Below, piece by piece: positions 30,126 to 62,431 of a DNA stretch of 64,000 nucleotides. This DNA comes from Heterodera schachtii (lineage: Eukaryota > Nematoda > Chromadorea > Rhabditida > Heteroderidae). Within the stretch, counting starts at the first letter, position 1; each line of letters begins with the position of its first letter. The stretch lies in assembly GCA_023374025.1 (NCBI GenBank), contig SIJG01000161.1:20091-84090 (forward strand), read 5' to 3'. The notes beneath the pieces were generated by a model. The model saw only the letters and a list, made by a program, of their open reading frames with translations. It made no database searches and was not told the DNA's origin. The position numbers were made by a program, and so were the translations under genes.

Positions 30126-30742
30126 AACAATCCGGGGTGACGCCAAAGGCTGACTGGTGAGCTTAGCAACAAAAAAATAAAAATAAAATACGAGTGCCGT
30201 ACTGACGAGGCCCGCTCGTATTTTTCACTAAAATTCAAACCGTGTCTACGGCTTTGAAGGGCCGAAACATTTGCATATTTGGTTGACGCGGTAGTAAACC
30301 CCTATAGGATATTTGATACGCTTTTTCGAATATCCTGGGGGCCATCCATGAAAACCGTGGAGTCCTTCCTGGTACTGGGTTTTCTTCCCAGTTGGGTGGG
30401 CGCGGGCGTTCGCTTTCCACTGGTCCTTTTGCGTTGGTATCCAGGGCTGTGCGGCCTGGACGGTTGGAACCAAGTTCCTTCCTGAGCCCGCCGGGTGTCA
30501 CAGCGATCTGAAGGACCAGCCAGATAGTCGGTCTGGTGTGGACGGTGGCCCTTCATCCCTGCGCTTGGGGGTGAAGGTGAGCTTGTACCTAGCAGCGGGG
30601 GTGGCGGTTCCTAGCCGTAATGTGTCCTGCCTTCGGGCTGCATTCGTACAGCGAGAGAATAACCGGGACTGGCTGGCCCGGAGGACCGTGAGTCACTGAG
30701 CAGTGTCGAACGCGCAGCTGCTCAAACTTAACACCCCGGATT
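30126..30742. other. GC-rich block closed by 11 bp inverted repeat
   Basis: AATCCGGGGTG at 30128-30138 and CACCCCGGATT at 30731-30741 are perfect inverse copies around 0.6 kb that is much richer in GC than its surroundings. Inside are the hammerhead-like motif and further potential stems such as GAGCAG...CTGCTC (about 30697-30723). Overlapping short frames show no motif. The look resembles the structured 5' untranslated region of a non-LTR element, but I cannot identify one. Confidence 0.45.
30187..30272 (+). ncRNA. hammerhead-like ribozyme motif A, permuted
   Basis: CTGACGA at 30203-30209 is flanked by GCCGTA (30197-30202) and GGCCC (30210-30214). Downstream come GTGTC (30243-30247) followed by TACGGC (30248-30253), then GGGCC (30260-30264) and GAAACAT (30265-30271). 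GCCGTA pairs with TACGGC (stem I), GGCCC with GGGCC (stem II), and ACAT with GTGT (stem III, one G-U). All are in exact hammerhead register, with C17 of a GUC site at 30247. The strand order is core, cleavage strand, GAAA strand, which is not type I, II or III. An extra stem AAAATACGAG/CTCGTATTTT encloses the first strand. Confidence 0.5.
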
Positions 30743-31185
30743 AAAATCCGCGTAGACGGAACTCATATGTGCTGTGGGCGTTGGCAAAAGTGCCTTATGA
30801 AGGGAGTAATTACCTAACATAGGGAGGCCTACACCAAACCTTGCACTTTGGAATGGTAGCTCCACACACTTTGAGTTCCATGAGCGGTTCCATAATCGCT
30901 TGCTATGATGGCCACAGGTGGCGGGCATGCCCTCCCATCCGTTGGCCTTGGGTCGGCGGGTAGAAAATACGTAAAGGCGGCTGCCTAGCGTGTTTTTGGC
31001 CCTCCAAAAATGGCCCAAACCATCGGCTAGGAGAGGGGTCATGCCCGATTTTTTTTTGGTGCACATGGTTTTCGTCCATTTTCCACCACAAACCTCCTCG
31101 CGGTGTGTGCTGGGAATCCCGGTGCCATTGGCACGGATTGCGAACCCTTTTTTTAGAAAAAAAGGGATGTGGTTCGTAAAATAAA
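30743..31185. other. unassigned mixed-composition segment
   Basis: Moderately GC-rich sequence between the GC block and the 20 bp satellite. It includes a CCTTTTTTTAGAAAAAAAGG inverted repeat at about 31146-31165 and two TGCCATTGGC-like words near the satellite edge. Minus-strand frames extend into it from the satellite and have no recognisable domain. Nothing else supported. Confidence 0.5.
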
Positions 31186-33815
31186 TGGCATTTGAAGTGC
31201 CATTGACTGAAGTGAAGTGCCATTGAGTGAAGTGAAGTGCCATTGAGTGAAGTGAAGTGCCATTGAGTGAACTGAAGTGCCATTGAGTGAATTGAAGTGC
31301 CATTGAGTGAAGTGAAGTGCCATTGAGTGAATTGAAGTGCCATTGAGTGAATTGAAGTGCCATTGAGTGAAGTGAAGTGCCATTGAGTGAATTGAAGTGC
31401 CATTGAGTGAAGTTAAGTGCCATTGAGTGAAGTGAAGTGCCATTGAGTGAAGTGAAGTGCCATTGACTGAAGTGAAGTGCAATTGAGTGAATTGAAGTGC
31501 CATTGAGTGAAGTGACGTGCCGTTGAGTGAAATGAAGTGCCATTAGTGAAATGAAGTGCCATTGGGTGAGATGAAGTGCCATTGGGTGGAATGAAGTGCC
31601 ATTGAATGAAATTAAGTGCCATTGGGTTGAATGAAGTGCCATTGAGTGAATTGAAGTGCCATTGACTAAAGTGACGTGCCATTCGGTTAAATGAAATGCC
31701 ATTGAGTAAAATGAAGTGCCATTGGGTGAAATGAAATGCCATTGAGTAAAATGAAGTGCCATTGGGTGAAATGAAGTGGCATTGAGTGTAATGAAGTGCA
31801 ATTGGTGAAATGAAGTGCCATTGAGTGAATTGAAGTGCCATTGACTAAAGTGACGTGCCATTGGGTGAAATGAAATGCCATTGACTGATTTGAAGTTCCA
31901 TTGAGTGAAGTAAAGTGCCATTGACTAAAGTGACGTGCCATTGAGTTAAATGACGTGCCATTGGGTGAAAGGAAGTGCCATTGGGTGGAATGAAGTGCCA
32001 TGAGTGAAGTGAAGTGCCATTGACTAAAGTGACGTGCCATTGAGTTAAATGACGTGCCATTGGGTGAAAGGAAGTGCCATTGGGTGGAATGAAGTGCCAT
32101 GAGTGAAGTGAAGTGCCATTGACTAAAGTGACGTGCCATTGAGTTAAATGACGTGCCATTGGGTGAAAGGAAGTGCCATTGGGTGAAATGAAGTGCCATT
32201 GGGTGGAATGAAGTGCCATTGAGTGAAGTGAAGTGCCATTGACTGAAGTGAAGTTCCATTGAGTGAAGTGAAGCGCCATTGAGTGAAGTGAAGTGCCATT
32301 GACTGAAGTGAAGTGCCATTGAGTGAATTGAAGTGCCATTGACTAAAGTGACGTGCCATTGGGTGAAATGAAATGCCATTGAGTAAAATGAAGTGCCATT
32401 GGGTGAAATGAAGTGGCATTGAGTGAATTGAAGTGCCATTGAGTGAAGTGAAGTGCCATTGAGTGGAGTGAAGTGCCATTGACTAAAGTGACGTGCCATT
32501 GGGTGAAATGAAATGCCATTGAGTAAAATGAAGTGCCATGAGTGAAGTGAAGTGCCATTGACTAAAGTGACGTGCCATTGAGTTAAATGACGTGCCATTG
32601 GGTGAAAGGAAGTGCCATTGGGTGGAATGAAGTGCCATGAGTGAAGTGAAGTGCCATTGACTAAAGTGACGTGCCATTGAGTTAAATGACGTGCCATTGG
32701 GTGAAAGGAAGTGCCATTGGGTGGAATGAAGTGCCATTGACTGAAGTGAAGTTCCATTGAGTGAAGTGAAGTGCCATTGAGTGAAGTGAAGTGCCATTGA
32801 CTGAAGTGAAGTGCCATTGAGTGAATTGAAGTGCCATTGACTAAAGTGACGTGCCATTGGGTGAAATGAAATGCCATTGAGTAAAATGAAGTGCCATTGG
32901 GTGAAATGAAGTGGCATTGAGTGAATTGAAGTGCCATTGAGTGAAGTGAAGTGCCATTGAGTGAAGTGAAGTGCCATTGAGTGAAGTGAAGTGCCATTGA
33001 ATGAAGTGAAGTGCAATTGAGTGAATTGAAGTGCCATTGAGTGAAGTGACGTGCCGTTGAGTGAAATGAAGTGCCATTAGTGAAATGAAGTGCCATTGGG
33101 TGAGATGAAGTGCCATTGGGTGGAATGAAGTGCCATTGAGTGAAATGAAGTGCCATTGGGTGGAATGAAGTGCCATTGAGTGAATTGAAGTGCCATTGAC
33201 TAAAGTGACGTGCCATTGGGTGAAATGAAATGCCATTGAGTAAAATGAATTGCCATTGGGTGAAATGAAGTGGCATTGAGTGTAATGAAGTGCCATTGGG
33301 TGAAATGAAGTGCCATTGGGTGAATTGAAGTGCCATTGACTAAAGTGACGTGCCATTGGGTGAAATGAAATGCCATTGAGTAAAATGAAGTGCCATGAGT
33401 GAAGTGAAGTGCCATTGACTAAAGTTACGTGCCATTGAGTTAAATGACGTGCCATTGGGTGAAAGGAAGTGCCATTGGGTGGAATGAAGTGCCATGAGTG
33501 AAGTGAAGTGCCATTGACTAAAGTGACGTGCCATTGAGTTAAATGACGTGCCATTGGGTGAAAGGAAGTGCCATTGGGTGGAATGAAGTGCCATGAGTGA
33601 AGTGAAGTGCCATTGACTAAAGTGACCTGCCATTGAGTTAAATGACGTGCCGTTGAGTGAAGTGAAGTGCCATTGAGTGAAGTGAAGTGCGATCGAGTGA
33701 AGTGAAGTGCCATTGAGTGAAGTGAAGTGCCATTGACTGATTTGAAGTTCCATTGAGTGAAGTAAAGTGCCATTGAGTGAATTGAAGTGCCATTGACTGA
33801 AGTGAAATACCATTG
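31186..33815 (+). repeat. 20 bp satellite with higher-order repeats, about 130 units
   Basis: Unit GCCATTGAGTGAAGTGAAGT with variants (GACTAAAGTGAC, GGGTGAAAGGA, GAGTTAAATGAC). The order of variants repeats in blocks of about 100 bp at 31990-32160, 32530-32720 and 33395-33640, and longer blocks recur around 32340-32480 and 32840-33060. Minus-strand frames up to 549 codons (ALHFTQWHFTSLNGTS) are the three-unit, 60 bp translation of the repeat and are not genes. Confidence 0.95.
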
Positions 33816-33821
33816 CGTGAA

Positions 33822-33902
33822 AACATATGAGTGCTGTACTGACGAGGCCCGCTCAATATGTAAATATCAAACCGTGTCTACGGCTTGATGGGCCGAAACA
33901 CA
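33822..33902 (+). ncRNA. hammerhead-like ribozyme motif B, upstream of Helitron 1
   Basis: Second copy of motif A. GCTGTA (33833-33838), CTGACGA (33839-33845), GGCCC (33846-33850), GTGTC (33874-33878), TACGGC (33879-33884), GGGCC (33890-33894), GAAACAC (33895-33901). Stem I contains one U-G wobble; stem III is a full ACAC/GTGT. The enclosing stem is ACATATGAG/CTCAATATGT, different in sequence from copy A but still complementary. The predicted cut after 33878 would leave a 5' leader of about 171 nt before the Helitron 1 start codon at 34050. Activity is untested. Confidence 0.5.
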
Positions 33903-34023
33903 CCTTACAGGTTGTGAGTAAACGCTACGATGACTCAAGGAGTCCCAATTATTTATTACTGCGTGCCATCAACGCGCAATTTTTTCTAATACTATTATGA
34001 ACAAATTATTTATGTTCCCTTTC

Positions 34024-34030
34024 TTTTTAG
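34024..34030 (+). promoter_or_regulatory. possible splice acceptor before Helitron 1 start
   Basis: TTTTTAG after a pyrimidine stretch, 19 nt before the ATG. It fits an invertebrate 3' splice site, either for a 5' leader intron or for trans-splicing. Helitron 2 has a similar tract directly before its ATG. No donor site is assigned. Confidence 0.3.
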
Positions 34031-34049
34031 ATACTGTTCTACGATCATT

Positions 34050-35867
34050 ATGCCGTCAAAACAACAAAAGAAGCGAGATGCACAACGGGAAATTTATTTG
34101 TCAAACATTAATGCTGATGGAAACGCTGTTATTGAGGAAAGAGAAGAATTGCCTTCAACTTTATCACAATTTTCAACATTATCAATGTCAGAACAATCTA
34201 CTTGCTTAACAACTTCTTCGCCAATATCATATACTCAACAATCAGGAGGTCGCACTCGAAAAAGAAAAGTCTCGATTCATTGCAACGAAACACCAAAAAA
34301 GTCAAGAGGTAGGCCAAAAAAGAGGAAGGCCGGACCGGGCCGCGGTCATCGAAGTAGCTCATCTTCGCGCCAAAATACACCTGCAGCTCTTTCTGATCAG
34401 GCATTTTTGCCACAAAATGAACAAATGCTTCTCAATCTCTCAAATTCTGAACCGCTAATGGTCCAAGAAGGACCACTAATGCCAAGTGATGGACGTGTTG
34501 TGCAGCCTGAGCTATTTGCAAGCCGAAATGAGTTATTGAATTTGTGGAATAATCAAAACGAGATGTGCGATGACCGTGTCATTTACGCATACCTGCGTTA
34601 TCTGGCAAGCATAAATAATGACAAACGTGTTGCAGTTGTTGCGCCATTTTACACCGACCCAAATGTACACTACGGCCCTGGAGCAATCAATTTGGAACTT
34701 AATGATCACTGCTACAACCACACAGCAGACTATGATGTCCTGCTCATGCCTGTCGTTTTTCCTGGACATTTTACGCTGATGATATTTGACCGCTCCAATA
34801 GAGAACAATTACATTGTTGGTTCATTGATTCATTGCCACCTGCTCAAAATAGCACCGCTGATTTTAACAACCGTCTTAACGATAGCAGATTTCCAGGATT
34901 TAACCAAAACCGAATCAATCTCTTGACCCAAATTATCTGCCAATTGACTCAAGGTCTTGAACCAACTGCATTTGAAATCCAAATTCTTCCGCCAAATGAA
35001 TACACTTGCCAGTTGGATGGAATTAATTGTGGTTTTTTTACAATTTTGTACGCTGAATCTTATTTGATGAACAACCGCTGTCTTTTTTTGCCCAACCTTG
35101 ACATCAATACTGAGAGAAAAAGAATTCTTTCACAACTCGCCAAATTACTTCTATCAGACACAGTTGAATATCTTCCGAGGAATACAAATGGACAACAAAA
35201 TCTTGGACAAAGAAACAATTTTTTAGAAGGCGCACAAATACCACTTCAAAGATGTTCTACACCCATCATGGAATCTCATTTTAATAGCCGGGAGTCATCA
35301 ATCAGTGTATTATCAGCTTCTCGTCGTTCTTTACGCATTGCGAGTCGGGAATCAAGTCGCGCATCTTCAATTATTAATGAAACTTCGACCATTGCAAACA
35401 ACCCATTAACTCGTCGTTGTCATGTAAGACACCAAGGAATTCCGTGTGCCGATGTTCGAGCCAACCATTATCAACCATATTATGACTCTGGAAATATTGG
35501 TGATAAAAAATGCGATTTCTGCAAGGCGATGCTCTTCAACAGTGAAGCCACAGCAAAACATGGGAAGACTTCTTCAGCAATTTGCTGCAATTTTGGAAAA
35601 ATCTGCTTACCAAAACTCAACGATCCGCCCGCTGATTTATCTGCTCTTTCAACTGAAAACTCAGCAGAAGCAAAAGAATTTCGGAAGAATCAAAATGCTT
35701 ACAATTCATTGCTTGCATTTGCGTCTGTTTCTGTTGGATACAAAGAAAATTCGGTGGGAGGTGATGTGTGTTTCATGCTGAATGGGATGTTCGTCCGTCG
35801 GAATCAGTTCACTTTTTTCGGGACAAATGGCACCAAATTTTGCGCAATTGTTTGTGTTAGATCCTGA
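34050..35867 (+). pseudogene. Helitron 1 N-terminal part: AT-hook, Ulp1/C48-like protease, zinc finger
   Basis: ATG at 34050 (MPSKQQKKRD) matches the start of Helitron 2 (MPSKRVKEKK), which supports this start. An AT-hook-like RGRPKKR lies at about residues 86-92. The Ulp1-type catalytic set is visible: His in GHFTLMIF (codon at 34767), Asp in WFIDSL (34827), Cys in DGINCGFF (35028). Such domains cleave SUMO-like isopeptide bonds; here it may process the polyprotein or host conjugates, which is inference. A basic RRSLRI patch precedes a Cys/His cluster (CHVRHQGIPC...CDFCKAMLF...CC, about 35418-35600) typical of Helitron proteins. The last 15 codons are out of frame. Confidence 0.85.
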
Positions 35868-36195
35868 ACAAGCATTGGAACACCGAAAAATGAACACACG
35901 ATATGGTGGCGATCGTGTGAATCAAAACACTCTGAAAAAATTGGATACAATACTACGTCAACTACCATCCACTGGCTAACCAACTCATGAATTTTCACCA
36001 ACAATACCAAGCCAAACTTGCACAGGGTGGTCCGGATGCAGTACACAACTTTCGTCTCACACTTCTTGAGGCAAGAATGGCACCAACTGGAATACGCGAC
36101 CCAAATTTGCACCCACGACAGACCAATCTTCCGACTGAAGGCACTTTATTTGCTGTATGGACTGAATCTGACCGCCCACCAATGGAGAAAAGGTA
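35782..36195 (+). pseudogene. Helitron 1 linker between zinc finger and Rep, split over two frames
   Basis: The frame of 35782-35979 continues the homology (AQLFVLDPEQALEHRKMN, against GQLYILDPVEAMEQRRKN in Helitron 2) and ends at a TAA. The next frame, 35966-36190, continues it with FRLTLLEARMAPTGIRDPNL against FRMTLLNERSAPSGMKDPKL. This proves two separate indels in a once continuous frame. The longer fragments on either side use the third frame. Confidence 0.8.
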
Positions 36196-38027
36196 TTTGG
36201 ATCACAACGAGGCAAGGCGAGCTCCAGGAATTTCGACCTTATCATCCGTTAACCGATACTCTGTGTTATCCATTGGTTTTACCACATGGTGATGACGGAT
36301 ACCACCAGAATCTTTACAAGAAAACTTCTAACATTGATGGACGGCACAACGCACACACAAATTGCAGAGAAGGAGAAACTTTGTTGGATATTGATGTTGA
36401 CGCGGAGTCTGATTATGAATCAACAAACGACCCGGAAAGCCAGTCAGAACGGACCAGCATGTTATCTCATGAAACCGATGATGATGAAACTTCAAGTAAA
36501 AAAATGTCTCTCCGAGAATATGTGCGATATCGATTGGCAATCCGTGTTGACGAGAAGTACCATCACATTTGGATCGCAGCAGGTGGACTGAGTCAAAAAA
36601 TCGTGTTGGATTATGCGGCACGAATTGACGCAGATGTTGCAAATTATCTTCGTCGTCCAGAGTTTGACCTTCGAGGCACTATGCCAGAACATTTACTGCG
36701 ATGGTTTGTACGCAATGCTGGTCTTACTTCGCCGGAAGAAATTGGCTCAATCGTTCTATTTAGAAAAACCCAACCAGGAACACTTGCCTATTTCCAAAAC
36801 AAATACTACGACGCTACAACGATAATGGCACGAATCAGAAAACCTGATCGAGCTTGCTTCATGCTCACGTGGACTTGTAACCCACGCTGGCCTGAAATCA
36901 AGCGAAACTTCTTGCGTGACGATCAAAAAATGGTCGACCGCTTTGACATTCTTTGTCGGGTTTACGAGGACAAACTAAGGCATATACACTATCTTTTGGA
37001 GGTTAAAAAAATTCTTGGCACACAAATCGGATACGGCGAAGGGCGGGAATTTCAGAAACGAATTGGTGGACCACATTTACATCGACTTTTTCAATCGGAT
37101 ATTTTGGCCATCCCGGAATGCGTGGAAAATTTGATTTGGGCTCACATTCCTGCAGAACCTAATGCACAAGACCAATCTTCATGGGCAAATTTTATTCGAA
37201 AAGTGAGGACCCTTCTGCCAAAGTATCAATTCCATGATTGTGGAACTCATTGCCAAAACGCTCGTGGACGCTGCTCAAAAGGCTTTCCTAAACCTTTCAG
37301 CAAATTTACAATCCTTTTTGATGACAAACCCGCAGTTTATAAGCGACAACAACCAACGGACGGAGGCGAAACACTTACAGTAAAACGAGGACGGAGCGAA
37401 ATAACTTATGACAATTCACGGGTTATTCCTTACAACCCATTCATTTTGGTTCTATACGAAACACATCACAATTTGGAGTTCGCATATGGAAAATCGACAA
37501 ATATGAAATACCCACTCAAATATCCGCTCAAAGGACCATCCTATTCATACATTAGAAGCGAACAAACAAACAAAACGAACATTGATGAGCCAGCATCCTA
37601 CGCAAGAGTATTGTACAGATCGCCAGTTGAGGCTTTTTCAAGGATTATGTCGTACAGATATACATTCATGTCGCACACGGTGATGGCCCTTTCAATACAT
37701 CTTCCAGGACAGCAAAAAATGTATTTACGACCGGGACAAAACGCGCAGGAGCTCGCACAGCAAATTCTGGCCGGACAAATGGAGCTTCCGGTCACTCCCC
37801 TCTCCGCGTATTGGCAACAATGGCGCAATGACCCTGCTTTGAAGAACATTTTATTTGAAAACATGCCTGAAAAATATTTTTTTGACAAACAGAAAAAGGT
37901 TTGGAAGCCAAGAATACGAAATGCCAAGCGAAAGCAAATACTGGGACGGATTTATCCAATTCTGCCACGATCGCACGAGAAGTTCGCTTTATTCATTCTC
38001 ACCAAGCATTTTGCTGGTGACCCATGA
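36018..38027 (+). pseudogene. Helitron 1 Rep (HUH endonuclease) part
   Basis: Homology starts at about 36190 with KGIWITTRQGELQEF. An acidic linker follows (about 36380-36500), then the Helitron_like_N region (CFMLTWTCNPRWPEIKRNFL at about 36850). The HUH motif reads GGPHLHRL at about 37063-37086, with both histidines. The catalytic segment KYPLKYPLKG at about 37506-37535 holds two tyrosines four residues apart, as in Helitron Reps, for DNA nicking and joining. The fragment ends at a stop at 38025 next to an ACCC run, where Helitron 2 reads on without a break. Confidence 0.85.
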
Positions 38028-39897
38028 ACATTTGAAGTTGGTTAATGGACATCAATGCGAAAGCTTCCTGGAAGCAGCCCGACTTCGCGGCCTCATCAAG
38101 GATTCAAATGTATGGATAAGAACCCTTCAGGAAGGAGCCAATTATCTGAATCCAGCACAAATGCGCCAGTTGTTCGCCAGTATTCTCCTTTTTGGCAACA
38201 CTGAAGATTGTCTCATCGATGCATTGGCACTTTGGAACCAATTTTTGCCGCATATGTACGATATACGTTGCAGTGATGCAGAACGACCAATTCGAATTGA
38301 TCGGGCACTCGCCCTTCTTGAACGACTTTTGGTCAGACAGGGAAAGACATGTGAAGATTTTGGACTTCCAGCGCCTATGAACTCAATCGTCAACGACCCA
38401 ACACGCGGTGTGAACGACTTCTTTTTTCCAGGACATTTGGCAGATGATGATATTGACGAAACAGTTGATATACGACAGTTTGATTCGGCAAAAATGAATT
38501 GCGAGCAGGAACGCTTTTTCCAAATGATAAGAAATATCGCCTCAACTCGACCAACCGCTGCAGAAAACCGTTTATTCTTTTTGTCTGGTGATGGAGGCAC
38601 CGGAAAAACCTTCCTTCTCAATTATCTGTTATACCAATTGCGCAGAATTGGCAAAAAAGTGATTGCCACCGCCTCAACAGGCATGGCTTCCACACGCTTT
38701 TACGCAGGTGGCACAACAGTGCATTCAGCCTTTCGCCTTGGCATTCAGGTTGAGGCCGGAAAAATTCCATCAATACCAATGGAAAGCTATTTCGGACGCA
38801 GAATTATCGAATCTGAGGTCATTATTATTGATGAAATTACAATGTTGGAAAAAACTGTCTTGGAAAATGTAGATTTGTTGTGCAGGCGAATGGTTCCTCG
38901 CTTCGGCCAACTTCCTTTTGCTGGAAAAGTTGTTATACTTTCGGGTGATTGGAAACAGTCGTTGCCAGTTGTCACTGACGCATATGGCACTGAGCCTCAA
39001 GTTGCAGCATGTATTCAATCTTCACCGCTCTATCAGCTCTTCACAAAGATAAGGCTCGTACAGAACATGCGTGTCAATTCTGGAGACATTGAATTCATCG
39101 ATTGGCTGAAGAAGGTCGGTACAGGTGCATTCGGTGACACTGTGCCAATTCCAAAGGAGTGGGTGGTTCATTCACGAGACGAAGTCGTTTCTTCTGTATT
39201 TGACCAAGGCTTTGCACAGCCAGCAACTGAAATGCTGAAGCGATTAATGCTGGCAACAACCAACCGAATTGTGGACATGAATAATGATGCCATATTGAGA
39301 AATATTAATTGCGACTACACCGACTACTTCTCTGATGACAGACCAATTGACGTGAACCCAATGGCTCTTAATGCTGCTGATCAGGACGTTTCACAGCTTA
39401 ACCTGCTGAATCCATCTGGCATTCCGGCGCATCATCTTCGGCTGAAAGTTGGCTCGATAATTGTGTTGTTGATTAATTTAAACACGGCCAAATCACTGTG
39501 CAATGGTACTCGATTGATTGTCAAAAAACTGACCGATTATTTGATTCATGCCGAAGCAATAACTGGTGCAACAGCTCAAAGTGGAATTGAAGTTGCAATA
39601 CCAAAAGTTGCAACAACTTACAAAGACAAACAGCCAAACGGGGTTAATTTTGAAAGATTCCAGTTCCCCGTTAGGGTGGCTTTCACGATGACAGTGACAA
39701 AAGCCCAGGGACAAACGTGCCAAAGGCTCGGCATCGACTTCACCGAAGAAGCATTCGCCCACGGTCAAACTTACACAGCTTTTTCACGAGCTACAAGCTC
39801 TGATTCCATTCGGGTGTATGCCCCAAATAAGCCAGTTGACGCAGACGGAAATGTTTTGGTGCGTAACATTGTCGCCGACGGAATTCGATTTGACTGA
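37855..39897 (+). pseudogene. Helitron 1 PIF1-family helicase part
   Basis: True homology begins at about 38026 (EHLKLVNGHQ). Walker A GDGGTGKT lies at about 38590-38613 and Walker B IIIDEITML at about 38824-38850. SGDWKQSLPVV follows at about 38942, then a late HHLRLKVGSIIVL block. The C-terminal signature TVTKAQGQTCQRLGIDF with TAFSRA marks superfamily 1B PIF1/RecD2-type helicases that unwind DNA during rolling-circle transposition. All helicase motifs look intact, so the damage is limited to the upstream frame changes. The stop is at 39895-39897; AATAAA follows at 39914-39919. Confidence 0.9.
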
Positions 39898-56012: not shown

Positions 56013-56193
56013 ATATTGGATAGATGAGTGACCGGGCTGAATGATTTTGGCAGCGGCTTCACGTGTGACGTCATCGATGAACTGCATCAATAATTCACAA
56101 CTTTCTATATTTGAATAAATATTTTGTTTGTGTGGATTTATTGGTTAAATTTCCTCGATACTTTTGTCACACTTGAATTTTCACACTGACTTT

Positions 56194-56203
56194 GTTTTTG
56201 TAG
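56194..56203 (+). promoter_or_regulatory. possible splice acceptor at Helitron 2 start
   Basis: TTTTTGTAG ends at the base immediately before the ATG at 56204. This fits an invertebrate 3' splice site and parallels the TTTTTAG before Helitron 1. Confidence 0.35.
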
Positions 56204-59200
56204 ATGCCTTCAAAGCGAGTAAAGGAGAAGAAGAGAAAGAGAGAAGAGCACGGGCGGAGCAATCTGTCAGTCCAGGTCGCTCACCTATCCCAAATTGCCC
56301 TCCTCAGGGTAATTCAAACTGTCCTAATTTGGACAACCCATTGAGTGCAGATGGGAATGGGGCGGCATCGCCCCGGGGTTTAAGCACCCCAAAATTGAGT
56401 GCTTTGAAATTGAGCACGCCGGCTTCTTCAATTGGAAGTAAACGACGGGGCATACCTCATAAAGCCGCAGATGAGGCAATCACTGCTTCGCAAAACAGTG
56501 TGTCTTCAGTTGACACACAATTTACATCGGCCACTCAAAATATTGAGGTAACGCCGCGCAGCAAAAAAGAGAAGATCGACGATGTTGACCGACCCAGCTC
56601 TGTTATTGAAGCAATTGCTCCAACGCCAGTTTCAACGCAAAGAAACCGTGGCAGACCTGTCAAAAAAAGAGGCGGTCATGCTGGCTCAGGCAGGGCCAAA
56701 ACAAATGATTCGTTGAACGAAGGCTCATCGATGGATCAAAGCTCTGAAGCTGATATAAATGTTGCGATTTTGCCAAATGTGCCTGAAAAGATAAATTTCA
56801 GCACAGTGCAAATTAATTTCGCCACATGGCGAAATATGGCCTGCAAAATTCGGAGATTTGCCGATGTTGGCCTTTATGAGCGTGATGGCGAAACAGCACA
56901 AGGCCCACGCTCTGGCCCAAGATTCATTGAGACCTGTTGGAATGATCTGACACAGTTTCTAAATGATGCCTTTGTTGTCGAGTATTTGGCATACTTGGCA
57001 AGTATATCACAACGAAAAGTGCTCGTTGTTGATCCAGTTGTGTTGCAAACGGGCATAGGCCGGGTCATGCCTTACAAAAATATGACATTTGGGTATGACC
57101 CCAACGTTCCGGCAGAAGTCATACTTTTGCCAGTACATTTCCCTGGACATTGGACTCTCATTGTTCATGATGTTCAGTTCGGTACTCATTTTGCCGATTC
57201 TTTGCATACCCCTTATGGCAGGTTGGATTGGCAACTAACGGATAAAATTGGAAAGATCATATCTGACCTTTTGCCGTCAACAGTGTTGACCGGGATTGTC
57301 AATGTCGAAGATCTGACGGTCCAACACGATGGAAATAGCTGCGGGTACTTTGTGTGCCTGTATGCTGAATCCTGGCTTATGAACAATCGCACATTTGTTC
57401 TGCCAAACTTATCCATCAATTATGAGAAAAAGCGCATTTTATGGCACATCAATGAGCTTTACGGCTCTGATAATGTGCCATATCATCCGAGGGAAGGGGT
57501 AGCAACTCCTTACCCAATTGTCTATCGATATGCGGATGAACTGCAGTCGACATCCAAGGCCGCTGAGCCAATGGAAGTTGATGAGCATGATGACATAATG
57601 ATCATCGAACCACAGACAAGTGGACAGGCAGTTTATGCCATTCTCACGCAAGCCCAAGTGGCTGGTGAAAACCAAGCCGACACGCTTGGTTTGGTGTCGG
57701 AGTCTTGCATTCCGCAAGAGCCAATTGCGCAGGCTAACGATGCAATCTTTGTCAGGCCGAAGACGCCTCCAAGGCGATCATTGCGCATTGGTAGAAGGCA
57801 ATCAGCTTCTATTAGCCGTTCTCCTTCACCCGCACCGAGACGTCGGTCATCGGCAAATACTCTCAACCAAATTACACCTTTCACTAAACGGTGTCATTTT
57901 GTCCACAAGGGTTGGTGCTGTGCTGCCGCAGCAGCAAAGCATTATCCAGAATATTCAAATTCTGGTAAGCTTGGCGACAAGAAGTGCTCTCATTGTGGGG
58001 CACTACTTTTCCCGCATGAAGACAGCAGCGTTTGCTGTCGTCAGGGAAGGGTTGTTTTGCCAAAGCTTAACCCGCACCCAAAAGAGCTTAAAGAGCTCAT
58101 CGTGTGCGACAAACAATCCCGCGAAGGAAAGGAGTTTGTTCGGCATATGTCGCGTTACAACAATTTGCTCCAATTTGCGAGTGTTTCGGCTGGGAATAAG
58201 CCATGCCCTGCTGGCGGCCCGATGGCAGTAATTCTCAACGGGGAATTCCATCGCCGCATAAGCAGCATGCAGGCAGGCACAACACAGATTCCTGGCTTTG
58301 GTCAGTTGTATATTCTGGATCCAGTCGAAGCCATGGAGCAGCGACGAAAAAATCCCACATTTACTGGGGAAAAAATCACAAACGAGGAAGAGTTTGTGCA
58401 GGGTCATCAGCTTAATGATGAGACCCTTGAAATCTTGGAAAAAATGATCCAAGAAAACCACCCGGCTGCATCGGCCTACAAGCAGGCTCGTGAACAGCTC
58501 CAGGAGTTGTTAAGACAACAAAGGACTGAAGAACTTCGGTTCTTCAGAATGACTTTGTTGAATGAGCGCTCAGCTCCGAGTGGTATGAAAGACCCGAAGT
58601 TGCATCCCCACCAGATAATCACCCCCTCAACGGGTGAAGGGATGTTTGCAATTCATGCGGATCCCACTGGTGCCCCGGAAACTAAAGGGATTTGGGTTGA
58701 AAACAAGCAAGGGCAGCTTAACGAAATTGCTCCTCTCAGTCCATGGACTGATAGCTTGACATATCCACTTATCTTGCCTAAGGGCGACGATGGGTATAAA
58801 ATTGGCATGCCATATGCTAAACCCGCTTCAAGAAAGCGGAAAAGTGACCAATGTGTTGACCAAATGTTTGACACCGATGCAATGTCCGATGATGACATCT
58901 GCGAGACAGAGTCAATTGCATCGACAGATGCCGGATCAGAAGCATCGATGCAGTCAGTGACAACTCACTATGACAAATCGAAAAAGTTTGTCTCCCTGCG
59001 AGATTACTGCAAGTACCATCTCGCAATAAGGGATGAAAATGTTGAGTTGCAATACCACCACATTCTGTCATGTGGCGGTGGCCTTGGACAGCGCTGGGTC
59101 CTAGACCAAGCTTCCAAAATTGACTGGCAAATTGCCTCTTTTTTGCGCCGTCCAGACATGGACCTGCGCATAAGTACTCCAAAAAATTTGCTGCAGTATT

Positions 59201-61755
59201 TGGTGAACCATTACAATAAGCAGCAAGCTCGGCAAAACCCCAATGCACGACAAAAGACTGTCGATGACATTGGCAGTGTTGTTCGCCTTTCTGAAAGGAA
59301 TGTAAATTCTCTTCAGTATTGGAAAAAAATGTATGAAGACTGCAACACCATTTTTGCACGTTGCCACGACGCAAAAAAGGCGCGGCTCTTCATCACCTTT
59401 ACGAACAACCGTGAGTGGCCTGAGTTTAAGGAGAACATTTACAAAAATGGTCAAATGTTCACTGACCGTTTTGACATGTGGATGCGTGTATGGTGCAGCA
59501 AAATTGCTGTTTTCCACCACGAACTCTATGATAAGGGTTTTTTCGGAACAATCCTTGGCTCGGGAGAGTCCATGGAGTTCCAAGGGCGTGGTGGCCCACA
59601 CGCACACATCGTTGCCCAGACTGACCTGGACGCAGTTCCAGAAGTCATACAGGAATACATATGGGCTCATATTCCACCTTTGCCAGACAAAGATGATGAC
59701 TCGCCCATTGCGAAAATGCATCGCGAAGTACGCGATTTAATGCATATGCAACTGCACAGATGCAGTGATAGTTGGTGCGGTCCACGTGACCCCAACTTTG
59801 GGCGGTGCAAAAAGGGCTTTCCTGCCCCGTTTTCAAAATGTACGATTCTGCACCCGGATAGGCCCGCATTGTATTACCGGCCTAGCCCAACCGATGGTGG
59901 TGCCCAAATTGAGGTTAACGGCTTAATATACGACAACTCACAGGTCGTGCCGTATAACCCATACATTTTGCTGCGTTACCGAGTGCACCATAATGTGTTA
60001 TTCGCATACGGTAACAAAGCAAACATCAAATATGCACTAAAGTACCCTTTCAAAGGGCCTGGACATTGTTATGTCGAGTGCAAAGAGGAGTCCGGCAGCA
60101 AAATCGGTATCGATGAGCCGGCTCAATATGCCAAGATGAACTTCCGTGGAGCTACGGAAGCTTTTGCAGTTGTGCATTCAATGCCGTTTGCAAAGCTTTC
60201 ACACCACGTTGTTCATTTGTCAATTCATTTGCCAAACCAGCAGCCCGTTGTCTTTAGGACATTCCAACTGGTGAGCAAAGCTGAGGAAATTCAGCGAGGC
60301 GAACTCCCTGAGACGCCATGCTCTGCCTATTGGAAGCAATGGCAAAATGAATGGCAGCATGTTCCTTCGCTTAAGGACATGCTTTTTGAAAAAGTTCCAG
60401 AGCAATTTCTCTGGGATAAGGACAAATGGGTTCTTTACAAAAGGAAGCCTAGCAAAAGGCCCCCAATCGGTCGTGTTGTACCTGTCCCTCCAACGGACCG
60501 GGAAAGATTTGCGCTCTATGCGTTAATGCGTCACTTTCCCGGTGATCCGGACCACTTAAAACTGGTAAATGGGCAGCAGTACAACACCTTCACTGAAGCC
60601 GCTTTACAGCATGGGCTTCTTGAAGATGACCAAATTTGGCACAAAACGCTCGGCGAGGCAGCCTTGCATCGCTGGCCGGACCAGATGAGATGGCTCTTCG
60701 TGAGCATCCTCGTCTTTGGGCAGCCGAGCAATGCCCTAGAACTGTGGAACAAGTACAAAGACCAAATGTACAATCCACAGGGCATTACCAGTGCGGCTAT
60801 ACGTCACGCACGTGAGCAGGAAGCCTTAGCCGACATTGATTGGCGATTGCACTTCTTTAACTTAAGCTGCGTGCACTGTGGCCTCCCAGATCCACCAAAT
60901 TCAAAAGCAAAAAATACCAATTTGGCAGTTGAAGAATTTTTCTTTGGTGATGATGATCTGAATATGCCGCCTGGCCAGTCAAATCAAAGGCCACAACAAA
61001 ACACCCCTCCACTCAACAGCGACCAGCAAAAGGTCTTTGATGCTGTTGTGAGGGCAATACAGTCTGACCCAATGGATCAGACTGTGCATCGCCGATTCTT
61101 CATTTTCGGCGATGGAGGCACAGGAAAGACATTCCTGTTTGGCCAAATTATCAAGCGCTTGCGCAAGCCCCCATACACCTACAAAGTGCTTGCTACGGCA
61201 TCCACTGGGTGTGCGGCTATCTTGCTGCCATATGGGAAAACAGCCCATTCGACCTTCCGACTGGGCAGAGATGTCTCGCTGGACAAGCTTCCAAGCATTC
61301 CACTTGAGAGCTTCTTTGCCCGACGGATTCGTGAGGCACAACTCATCATCATTGATGAGATCACCATGCTTCACAACACGGTGATTGAGGTTATTAACCG
61401 CGTGTGCAAAGAGATGGCAATCTCACAGTACAAGAACCTCCCCTTCGGAGGAAAAACGGTTATTTTCAGCGGTGACTTCAAACAGTCACTGCCGGTCGTG
61501 CCTCACGAAGGCCTAACTGCACAAGTTACGGCCTGCTTCCAAACCTCACCGTTGTTTAGTGAATTCACTACAATGAAACTGACTATAAACCAGAGGTTGG
61601 GCCAAGGCCAGCAAGCGTACTTGCAAATGTGCCGCCAAATCGGCCTCGGAGATACCGGAGAACACTTCTGGATTCCTCCGCAGTTTCCTCGTAAAGAGCA
61701 GGGAAGAGTTGATAGACTTTGTCTATCCAAACTTCCAACAACTCCTTGGCAATGA
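56204..61755 (+). CDS. Helitron 2 protease-Rep-helicase polyprotein, main frame
   Basis: From the N-terminus: basic start, AT-hook-like RGRPVKKR (about 56647), then a Ulp1/C48-like domain with His in GHWTLIVH (codon 57148), Asp in HFADSL (57196) and Cys in GNSCGYF (57340). Next come the RRSLRI patch (about 57775) and a Cys cluster CSHCGALLF...CC (about 57987-58040). A Rep domain follows: FITFTNNREWPEFKENIY (about 59391), HUH motif HAH at 59599-59607, and tyrosines at 60031 and 60043 in KYALKYPFKG. The PIF1-type helicase has Walker A GDGGTGKT (61108-61131) and Walker B LIIIDE (61342-61359). The HUH Rep nicks and joins single-stranded DNA; the helicase unwinds it. The frame ends early at 61753 through a single indel. 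Confidence 0.88.
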
Positions 61756-62431
61756 CAAGGAACTGCTCAATCGTCTGATCCTCGCACCGCACATTGACAC
61801 GTGCGATGAGATCAACGAAATCATGATGGCAAATGTGCCTGGTCAAGTGCGCGAATATTTGTCCTCGGACAAACCGCTTGACGAGCGGCCACTGGACATC
61901 AATGAAATTGAGTCCGAAGTGGCAGCGTTGAACCGGCGCTCAGACTCTGGGATGCCTCCCCACCGTCTGCGACTCAAAGTCGGAAGCGTTGTTGTTCTCC
62001 TTATCAACAAAAGTGATAGGGAAGGACTTATCAACGGCACTCGTATCGTTCTTGAAGAACTTGGTGACGATCGCCTGGTCGGTCGCGTCATTAACAACAA
62101 CGCTGTTGGTGGCCAAGTTAAGTTTTTCATTGAAAGAACACGCAATGTGTACGAGGACAAAACGCCTGGCGGCATAAAATATGAGCGTTTGCAGTTTCCC
62201 ATAAAACCTGCATTCGCCATGACCATACTCAAAGGTCAAGGCCAAACAATCAGCACAATTGGGATTGACCTTGAAAGGGATGTGTTTTCCCATGGTCAAT
62301 TGTACACTGCCTTTTCAAGGGCAACGGACGGGAACAACGTCCGAGTGTACGCTCCAAGAAGGGAGACCGATGCCCAAGGACAAGCAAAGGTGCTGAATAT
62401 TGTGGCAACAAAAATGCTCAAATTGCAATAA
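61690..62431 (+). CDS. Helitron 2 helicase C-terminus, second frame
   Basis: After the indel the homology continues with EELIDFVYPNFQQLLGND, then PHRLRLKVGSVVVLL (about 61960), FAMTILKGQGQTISTIGIDL (about 62212) and LYTAFSRATDGNNVRVYAP (about 62302), the conserved late motifs of the PIF1-family helicase. They align with Helitron 1 without gaps, so the domain is complete. The stop TAA at 62429-62431 lies within an AATAAA at 62427-62432. Confidence 0.88.

Follow-up and report, generated by a model that had tools for sequence, protein, structure and literature searches.

Type CSG hammerhead ribozyme candidates in a Helitron family of Heterodera schachtii, with type SGC counterparts in other transposons of the same genome

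The locus described here lies in a 64,000-nucleotide stretch of Heterodera schachtii DNA (the window; C161:20091–84090), part of a 178.5-Mb assembly made up of 356 contigs. The window contains a Helitron with three open frames (Table 1), the second of which holds a Helitron_like_N domain (PF14214, E 7.1e-25) and the third a PIF1 helicase (PF05970, E 3.9e-44). The protein beside copy B (see below) is 49–83% identical to Heterodera trifolii proteins and 61% identical to an H. schachtii protein. Upstream of the frames are two short segments, copy A (30185–30270) and copy B (33823–33901), which lie 3.6 kb apart in direct order. Each contains a complete hammerhead core, as checked by script.

Both copies have stems of 6, 5 and 4 bp together with an outer stem, P0, and in both the blocks run 5' to 3' as core strand (C), cleavage-site strand (S) and GAAA strand (G), an order that makes the fold pseudoknotted. 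The sequence-only reading of copy A had described a hammerhead core with all invariant positions present, three stems directly abutting it, links of 6 nt (30253–30258) and 28 nt (30214–30241), and an outer stem that would present the first strand as a loop. When the letters were re-read and checked by script, each of these elements was found as described, the outer stem being the 10-bp P0. The cut, which that reading had set after position 30247, was placed one base off; the predicted cut follows 30246. The same reading had called the strand order one not seen in types I–III. The order is indeed pseudoknotted and no rotation of those types, but it is not unprecedented, being that of type CSG, as described in the main text of PMC10085705.

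Table 1. Positions and pairing partners of the features discussed; positions are those of the window unless a contig or locus is named.
Feature	Position	Strand	Remarks
Copy A, outer stem P0	30185–30194 with 30215–30224	+	AAAATACGAG with CTCGTATTTT, 10 bp; block C is its loop
Copy A, P0 role	30185–30224	+	helix joining stems I and II
Copy A, block C	30196–30213	+	stem I 3' strand, core, stem II 5' strand
Copy A, block S	30242–30252	+	stem III GTGT, C17, stem I 5' strand TACGGC
Copy A, block G	30259–30270	+	stem II GGGCC, GAA, A15.1 and stem III ACAT
Copy A, stem I	30196–30201 with 30247–30252	+	GCCGTA with TACGGC, 6 bp
Copy A, core	30202–30208	+	CTGACGA
Copy A, stem II	30209–30213 with 30259–30263	+	GGCCC with GGGCC, 5 bp
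Copy A, GAA	30264–30266	+	
Copy A, A15.1	30267	+	
Copy A, stem III	30242–30245 with 30267–30270	+	GTGT with ACAT, 4 bp, outermost pair G-U
Copy A, C17	30246	+	predicted cut directly 3' of C17
Copy B, outer stem P0	33823–33831 with 33852–33861	+	type CSG; one bulged A
Copy B, stem I	33833–33838 with 33879–33884	+	
Copy B, core	33839–33845	+	
Copy B, stem II	33846–33850 with 33890–33894	+	
Copy B, stem III	33874–33877 with 33898–33901	+	
Copy B, C17	33878	+	
G+C-rich segment	30279–31056	+	between A and B; 7 further genomic places
Helitron open frame 1	33990–35867	+	downstream of copy B
Helitron open frame 2	35991–38027	+	downstream of copy B
Helitron open frame 3	37843–39897	+	downstream of copy B
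Target duplication	C136		CTTCTCAT
Target duplication	C213		GTTTCTTC
Target duplication	C5		GTAAATTA
Tandem-unit locus L105	C27:671000–676000		
Tandem-unit locus L074			
Tandem-unit locus L096			
Tandem-unit locus L148			

Both strands of the window were searched with a strict descriptor, which required at least 5 pairs in each of stems I and II, 4 or more in stem III, 12 Watson-Crick pairs and strands within 200 nt. Its only pseudoknotted matches were copies A and B, and it found no canonical hammerhead anywhere in the 64 kb. When the window was shuffled 60 times with its dinucleotides preserved, one pseudoknotted and one canonical match arose in total. Thus, the two copies are not chance matches. 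In the window, Rfam 15 gave no hammerhead family match at the gathering score, with Hammerhead_3 appearing only at E = 6, and eight ribozyme loci searched against Rfam matched no hammerhead family at E ≤ 1. Pseudoknot-free folds of A and B kept P0 and stem III, but competing inner hairpins were present. Stem III was absent from the minimum-energy pseudoknot-free fold of one copy of the second strand order described below (type SGC; L020), and pseudoknot-free folds were only 1.4–2.1 sd better than shuffles.

The interval between A and B holds further features. The G+C-rich segment has seven other copies in the genome, six of them 84–86% identical over 507–781 bases and one 85% identical over 88 bases. 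It matches no Rfam family, and in the ~140 bases before its copy on C38 there is no hammerhead. The segment ends close to a weak HDV-like ribozyme candidate at 31058–31147, where Rfam drz-agam-1 aligns over 31092–31139 and scores 23.3 bits where the cut-off is 37, with an E-value of 0.044 to 0.86 depending on search size. This candidate is identical across the three Helitron copies described below. Folded without pseudoknots, it does not outperform shuffled sequence, a result of little weight for a class that is itself pseudoknotted. A long minisatellite with a unit of ~20 bases (gtgccattgagtgaagtgaa) occupies 31196–33820 and is found in the related Helitron on C206 too. Elsewhere in the window, at 56149–62431, is a second Helitron with Helitron_like_N and PIF1, near which the window contains no hammerhead.

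Across the genome, the core-strand pattern ACTGAYGAGGCCC occurred at 128 places, versus 1 for the reversed control. The pattern S followed by G occurred at 85 places versus 0, and a looser pattern based on stem III at 79 versus 1. Among the outcomes that the sequence-only reading had listed as refuting it was a lack of further copies with compensatory changes; such copies exist elsewhere in the genome. Most of the genomic copies lie beyond the window seen by that reading, in other transposons, and are of type SGC: their order is S, G, C, which is a rotation of C, S, G and is pseudoknotted too. On contigs up to C137, the limit to which core-strand places were listed as well, 54 of 62 S-G places have a core strand on the same strand within 120 nt downstream, and 8 do not. 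Viral contigs (14 and 4 records matching two patterns) contained no pseudoknotted copy by the descriptor. One viral contig carries a canonical type III hammerhead of order S, C, G (L122:5739–5785), in which the stem I letters, TACGG/CCGTA, are identical to those of nematode copies.

The type SGC copies lie mostly in inverted pairs reading outward, in elements with terminal inverted repeats (TIRs). When the 85 S-G places were paired with neighbors within 6 kb, 28 pairs were divergent, 1 was convergent and 2 were direct; the two direct pairs are the Helitrons, and the divergent copies read outward from their element. By eye, target duplications of 8 bp lie outside the TIRs in all three elements inspected (Table 1). 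Mutator-like elements (MULEs) have TIRs and a target duplication of 8–11 bp. The C136 element holds a FLYWCH domain. We considered and rejected a reading of these elements as MULEs with their transposase, since no MULE domain lies inside the pairs: by eye, none of at least 95 MULE-domain places falls between ribozyme pairs. A protein search with a fragment of the C5 element also gave no match, and because of these two results the assignment of the TIR elements to a superfamily is tentative. In the C27 family, SGC copies sit on tandem units of 1058 bp, two of which are 98.7% identical. Five of its six sites have a U-U mismatch at the first pair of stem I, one of these five also has a core-base change, and C27:676792 is the sole intact site of the six.

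Pairing was counted over 55 instances (49 SGC and 6 CSG) comprising 36 distinct sequences; these are 59 high-scoring sites minus five C27 rows whose strands were mis-assigned, plus one C145 copy added by hand. Among the 36 distinct sequences, 517 of 540 pair cells in stems I–III were standard, and sliding the partner strand reduced this to 135–229 of 540. Position N7 was C in 24 of the 36 and U in 12; H17 was C in 32 and A in 4. This variation is what the hammerhead family allows, and the invariance of the core in these counts is partly built in, because the searches used the core.

To evaluate covariation in type SGC, we aligned 18 sequences chosen for diversity, one of which (L046) falls below score 9. 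Seven of 23 pairs change on both sides, a number reached by 2 of 500 shuffles, and the covariation score was above all 500; the number of further pair types was unremarkable, with 469 of 500 shuffles reaching the observed value. Covariation is clear in P0 (GGAAGGG/CCCTTCC, AGAGAC/GTCTCT and TGACAGGG/CCCTGTCA) and in stem I, where the change from TACGG/CCGTA to TACAG/CTGTA is essentially one event. Stem III has two pairs with two-sided change, in a single cell each. Stem II showed no covariation in the copies examined, being invariant in the six CSG copies and varying elsewhere only by broken pairs.

We scored 100 core-strand-like sites (one mismatch allowed; loci L001–L105; at least 60 bases from the locus end) against every partner within 170 nt. 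These sites cover 70 of 100 listed places, drawn from the 128 places matching the core-strand pattern, and 43 of those 70 listed places reach a score of 11 or more. At a score of at least 11, pseudoknotted partners were found at 59 of the 100 sites (54 S-G-C and 5 C-S-G; five of the 54 are C27 rows in which the scanner mis-assigned the cleavage strand), canonical partners at none, and flank-shuffled controls gave 0 of 500 in either class. At a score of at least 9, pseudoknotted partners were found at 62 of 100 sites versus 3 of 500 shuffles, and canonical partners at 8 of 100 versus 0 of 500; at seven of those eight sites the pseudoknotted score was the higher. A canonical reading was rejected, because no rotation of types I–III gives the strand order of A and B and because no canonical partner reached score 11 at any of the 100 sites.

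The remaining 41 of the 100 sites had no partner at score 11. A P0 of at least 6 bp is present at 18 of these 41, compared with 51 of the 59 partnered sites and 104 of 2000 shuffles. A few of the partnerless sites are chance pattern matches; the others suggest decay, use in trans, or a second role for the hairpin. Several such loci were noted individually. L025, L026, L071, L076, L084 and L087–L089 are core-strand hairpins with an 8-bp P0 whose cleavage and GAAA strands are missing nearby or damaged. Minus-strand copies on C3 and C125 have damaged cleavage and GAAA strands, with GGCCCTAAAC replacing GGGCCGAAAC. L098, L099 and L029 carry GACCC rather than GGCCC as the stem II strand, with no partner found nearby.

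The partnerless sites, and among them the 18 that retain a P0 of at least 6 bp, are what would be seen if the core-strand P0 hairpin and the second hairpin acted in DNA, as subterminal or replication hairpins for a transposase or a Rep/helicase, their hammerhead likeness being a relic. The C125 and C3 loci fit this explanation as well: one end has the core-strand hairpin alone, and the opposite end has a cleavage/GAAA hairpin that is damaged. However, a role in DNA does not account for a hammerhead core that is retained while N7 varies between C and U and H17 between C and A, nor for the joining of the two hairpins through stems I and II in each of the two block orders. We consider such a role improbable as the explanation of copies A and B.

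A second alternative is that the copies act on one another. If the core and GAAA strands came from A and the cleavage strand from B, the result would be a hammerhead of the ordinary kind, with no pseudoknot, and the direct order of A and B at a distance of 3.6 kb would permit it; sites with only a core strand exist, and weak canonical partners (score at least 9) occur at 8 of the 100 sites. Yet neighboring SGC copies are mostly inverted pairs, which cannot form this structure on one transcript, 59 of the 100 sites have a pseudoknotted partner close by, and P0 and the short links of 2–7 nt would have no role. Pairing across copies is therefore very unlikely to be what these sequences are for.

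The type CSG copies were traced through three related Helitrons (on C161, C206 and C145), each of which carries one A and one B in direct order. Relative to the protein on C161, the N-terminal Helitron protein is 77% identical on C206 and 38–89% identical, in pieces, on C145. All six CSG copies have the conserved core (CUGANGA, GAA, A15.1-U16.1 and H17), with H17 being C in five and A in one, copy B of C145, whose P0 is TCTATGAG/CTCATAGA. In stems I–III and P0, 133 of 135 cells are paired, compared with 30–50% in slid controls. In the alignment of these six related copies, 3 of 23 pairs change on both sides, all of them in P0 (3 of 8). This count was reached in 22 of 500 shuffles, and the number of further pair types in 267 of 500; in stems I and III one pair each varies, on one side only. 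Searching with the N-terminal 250 residues of the Helitron protein yielded 33 matches, and 18 of 24 loci fetched for the protein had no ribozyme in sequence that extends only 1.5 kb upstream. That A and B are the decayed remains of a once active ribozyme hitchhiking with the Helitron is consistent with the finding of carriers in three elements only and with those 18 loci, but is highly doubtful given that the core is kept in all six copies of elements that have diverged this far and that the changes in P0 are compensated.

Copies A and B are, in all likelihood, type CSG hammerhead ribozymes (non-circularly permuted and pseudoknotted) carried by a Helitron family of this nematode, probably a plant-parasitic cyst nematode. 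Their RNA would fold into two hairpins, one closed by P0 with the CUGANGA strand as its loop and one closed by stem III with the cleavage-site and GAAA strands in its loop. The two loops would then pair ("kiss") by way of stems I and II. Because the loops would pair through these stems, P0 would cap the far ends of both, replacing the usual contact between stems I and II. The RNA of copies A and B very probably cuts itself, and we infer cleavage after C30246 and C33878 because RNAs of the same type were cleaved in tests by others.

What these ribozymes most likely cut is transposon transcripts. In a read-through transcript, a cut at the predicted site of copy B, which is 171 nt upstream of the first in-frame ATG (34050), would set the 5' end at that distance from the start codon, and cutting at both A and B would release a piece of 3.6 kb. 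In the TIR elements, the SGC copies read outward at both ends and would therefore shorten, from the 3' side, transcripts initiated within the element.

The strand topology itself is already known (type CSG, 2023). Eckert et al. define the blocks C, S and G and name the orders SGC and CSG, and, according to the main text of their paper, two metagenomic CSG and five SGC RNAs were cleaved in vitro, four helices of one SGC RNA were tested by mutation, and hundreds of SGC sequences were predicted (PMC10085705). The same text reports no non-circular permutation from the genomes of named organisms save one doubtful GCS case, and its discussion terms the evidence for the biological relevance of CSG weaker. 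Nowhere does that main text contain the words nematode, transpos- or Heterodera (PMC10085705). Like the CSG of that description, the copies reported here have the order core, cleavage site, GAAA, a joining helix at the far ends of stems I and II, and all core nucleotides, a likeness judged from the description rather than from the sequences (PMC10085705). The CSG described there consisted of two similar sequences from metagenomes only, whereas the present set comprises six copies spread over three related Helitrons in a single eukaryotic genome, and the joining helix P0 carries compensatory changes (PMC10085705, main text). The SGC copies, for their part, resemble SGC/HRIMA-1 as described there in their order of cleavage site, GAAA and core, in a stem I of five conserved pairs and in a joining helix; the link between stems I and II is typically three nt in HRIMA-1 and 2–4 nt here (PMC10085705). 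HRIMA-1 came from metatranscriptomes, by way of hairpin-ribozyme contigs that the authors linked to circular RNA replicons (PMC10085705, main text). Unlike HRIMA-1, the SGC copies here are encoded in DNA, and the three inspected elements have TIRs and 8-bp target duplications.

Retrozymes and other hammerhead-bearing retroelements have the canonical strand order. The present copies share with retrozymes (PMC4918198) the presence of a hammerhead in a mobile element and of two copies per element; they differ from retrozymes and from those retroelements in their pseudoknotted order and in residing in DNA transposons. What is new is the setting, the transposons of one nematode genome in which both orders coexist. 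This genomic setting and the occurrence of both orders together were not found in the mainly open-access literature searched.

We see an even chance that a broader reading holds, namely that self-cleaving pseudoknotted hammerheads are working parts of two classes of eukaryotic DNA transposon (CSG in Helitrons and SGC in TIR elements), that within one genome a simple rotation turns either order into the other, and that the core-strand hairpin on its own may serve again in trans or to mark a transposon end. A single eukaryotic genome holds both orders in many copies, and the mobile elements that carry them have transcripts open to study. Such a setting makes the function of permuted hammerheads, and the origin of the permutations, directly testable.
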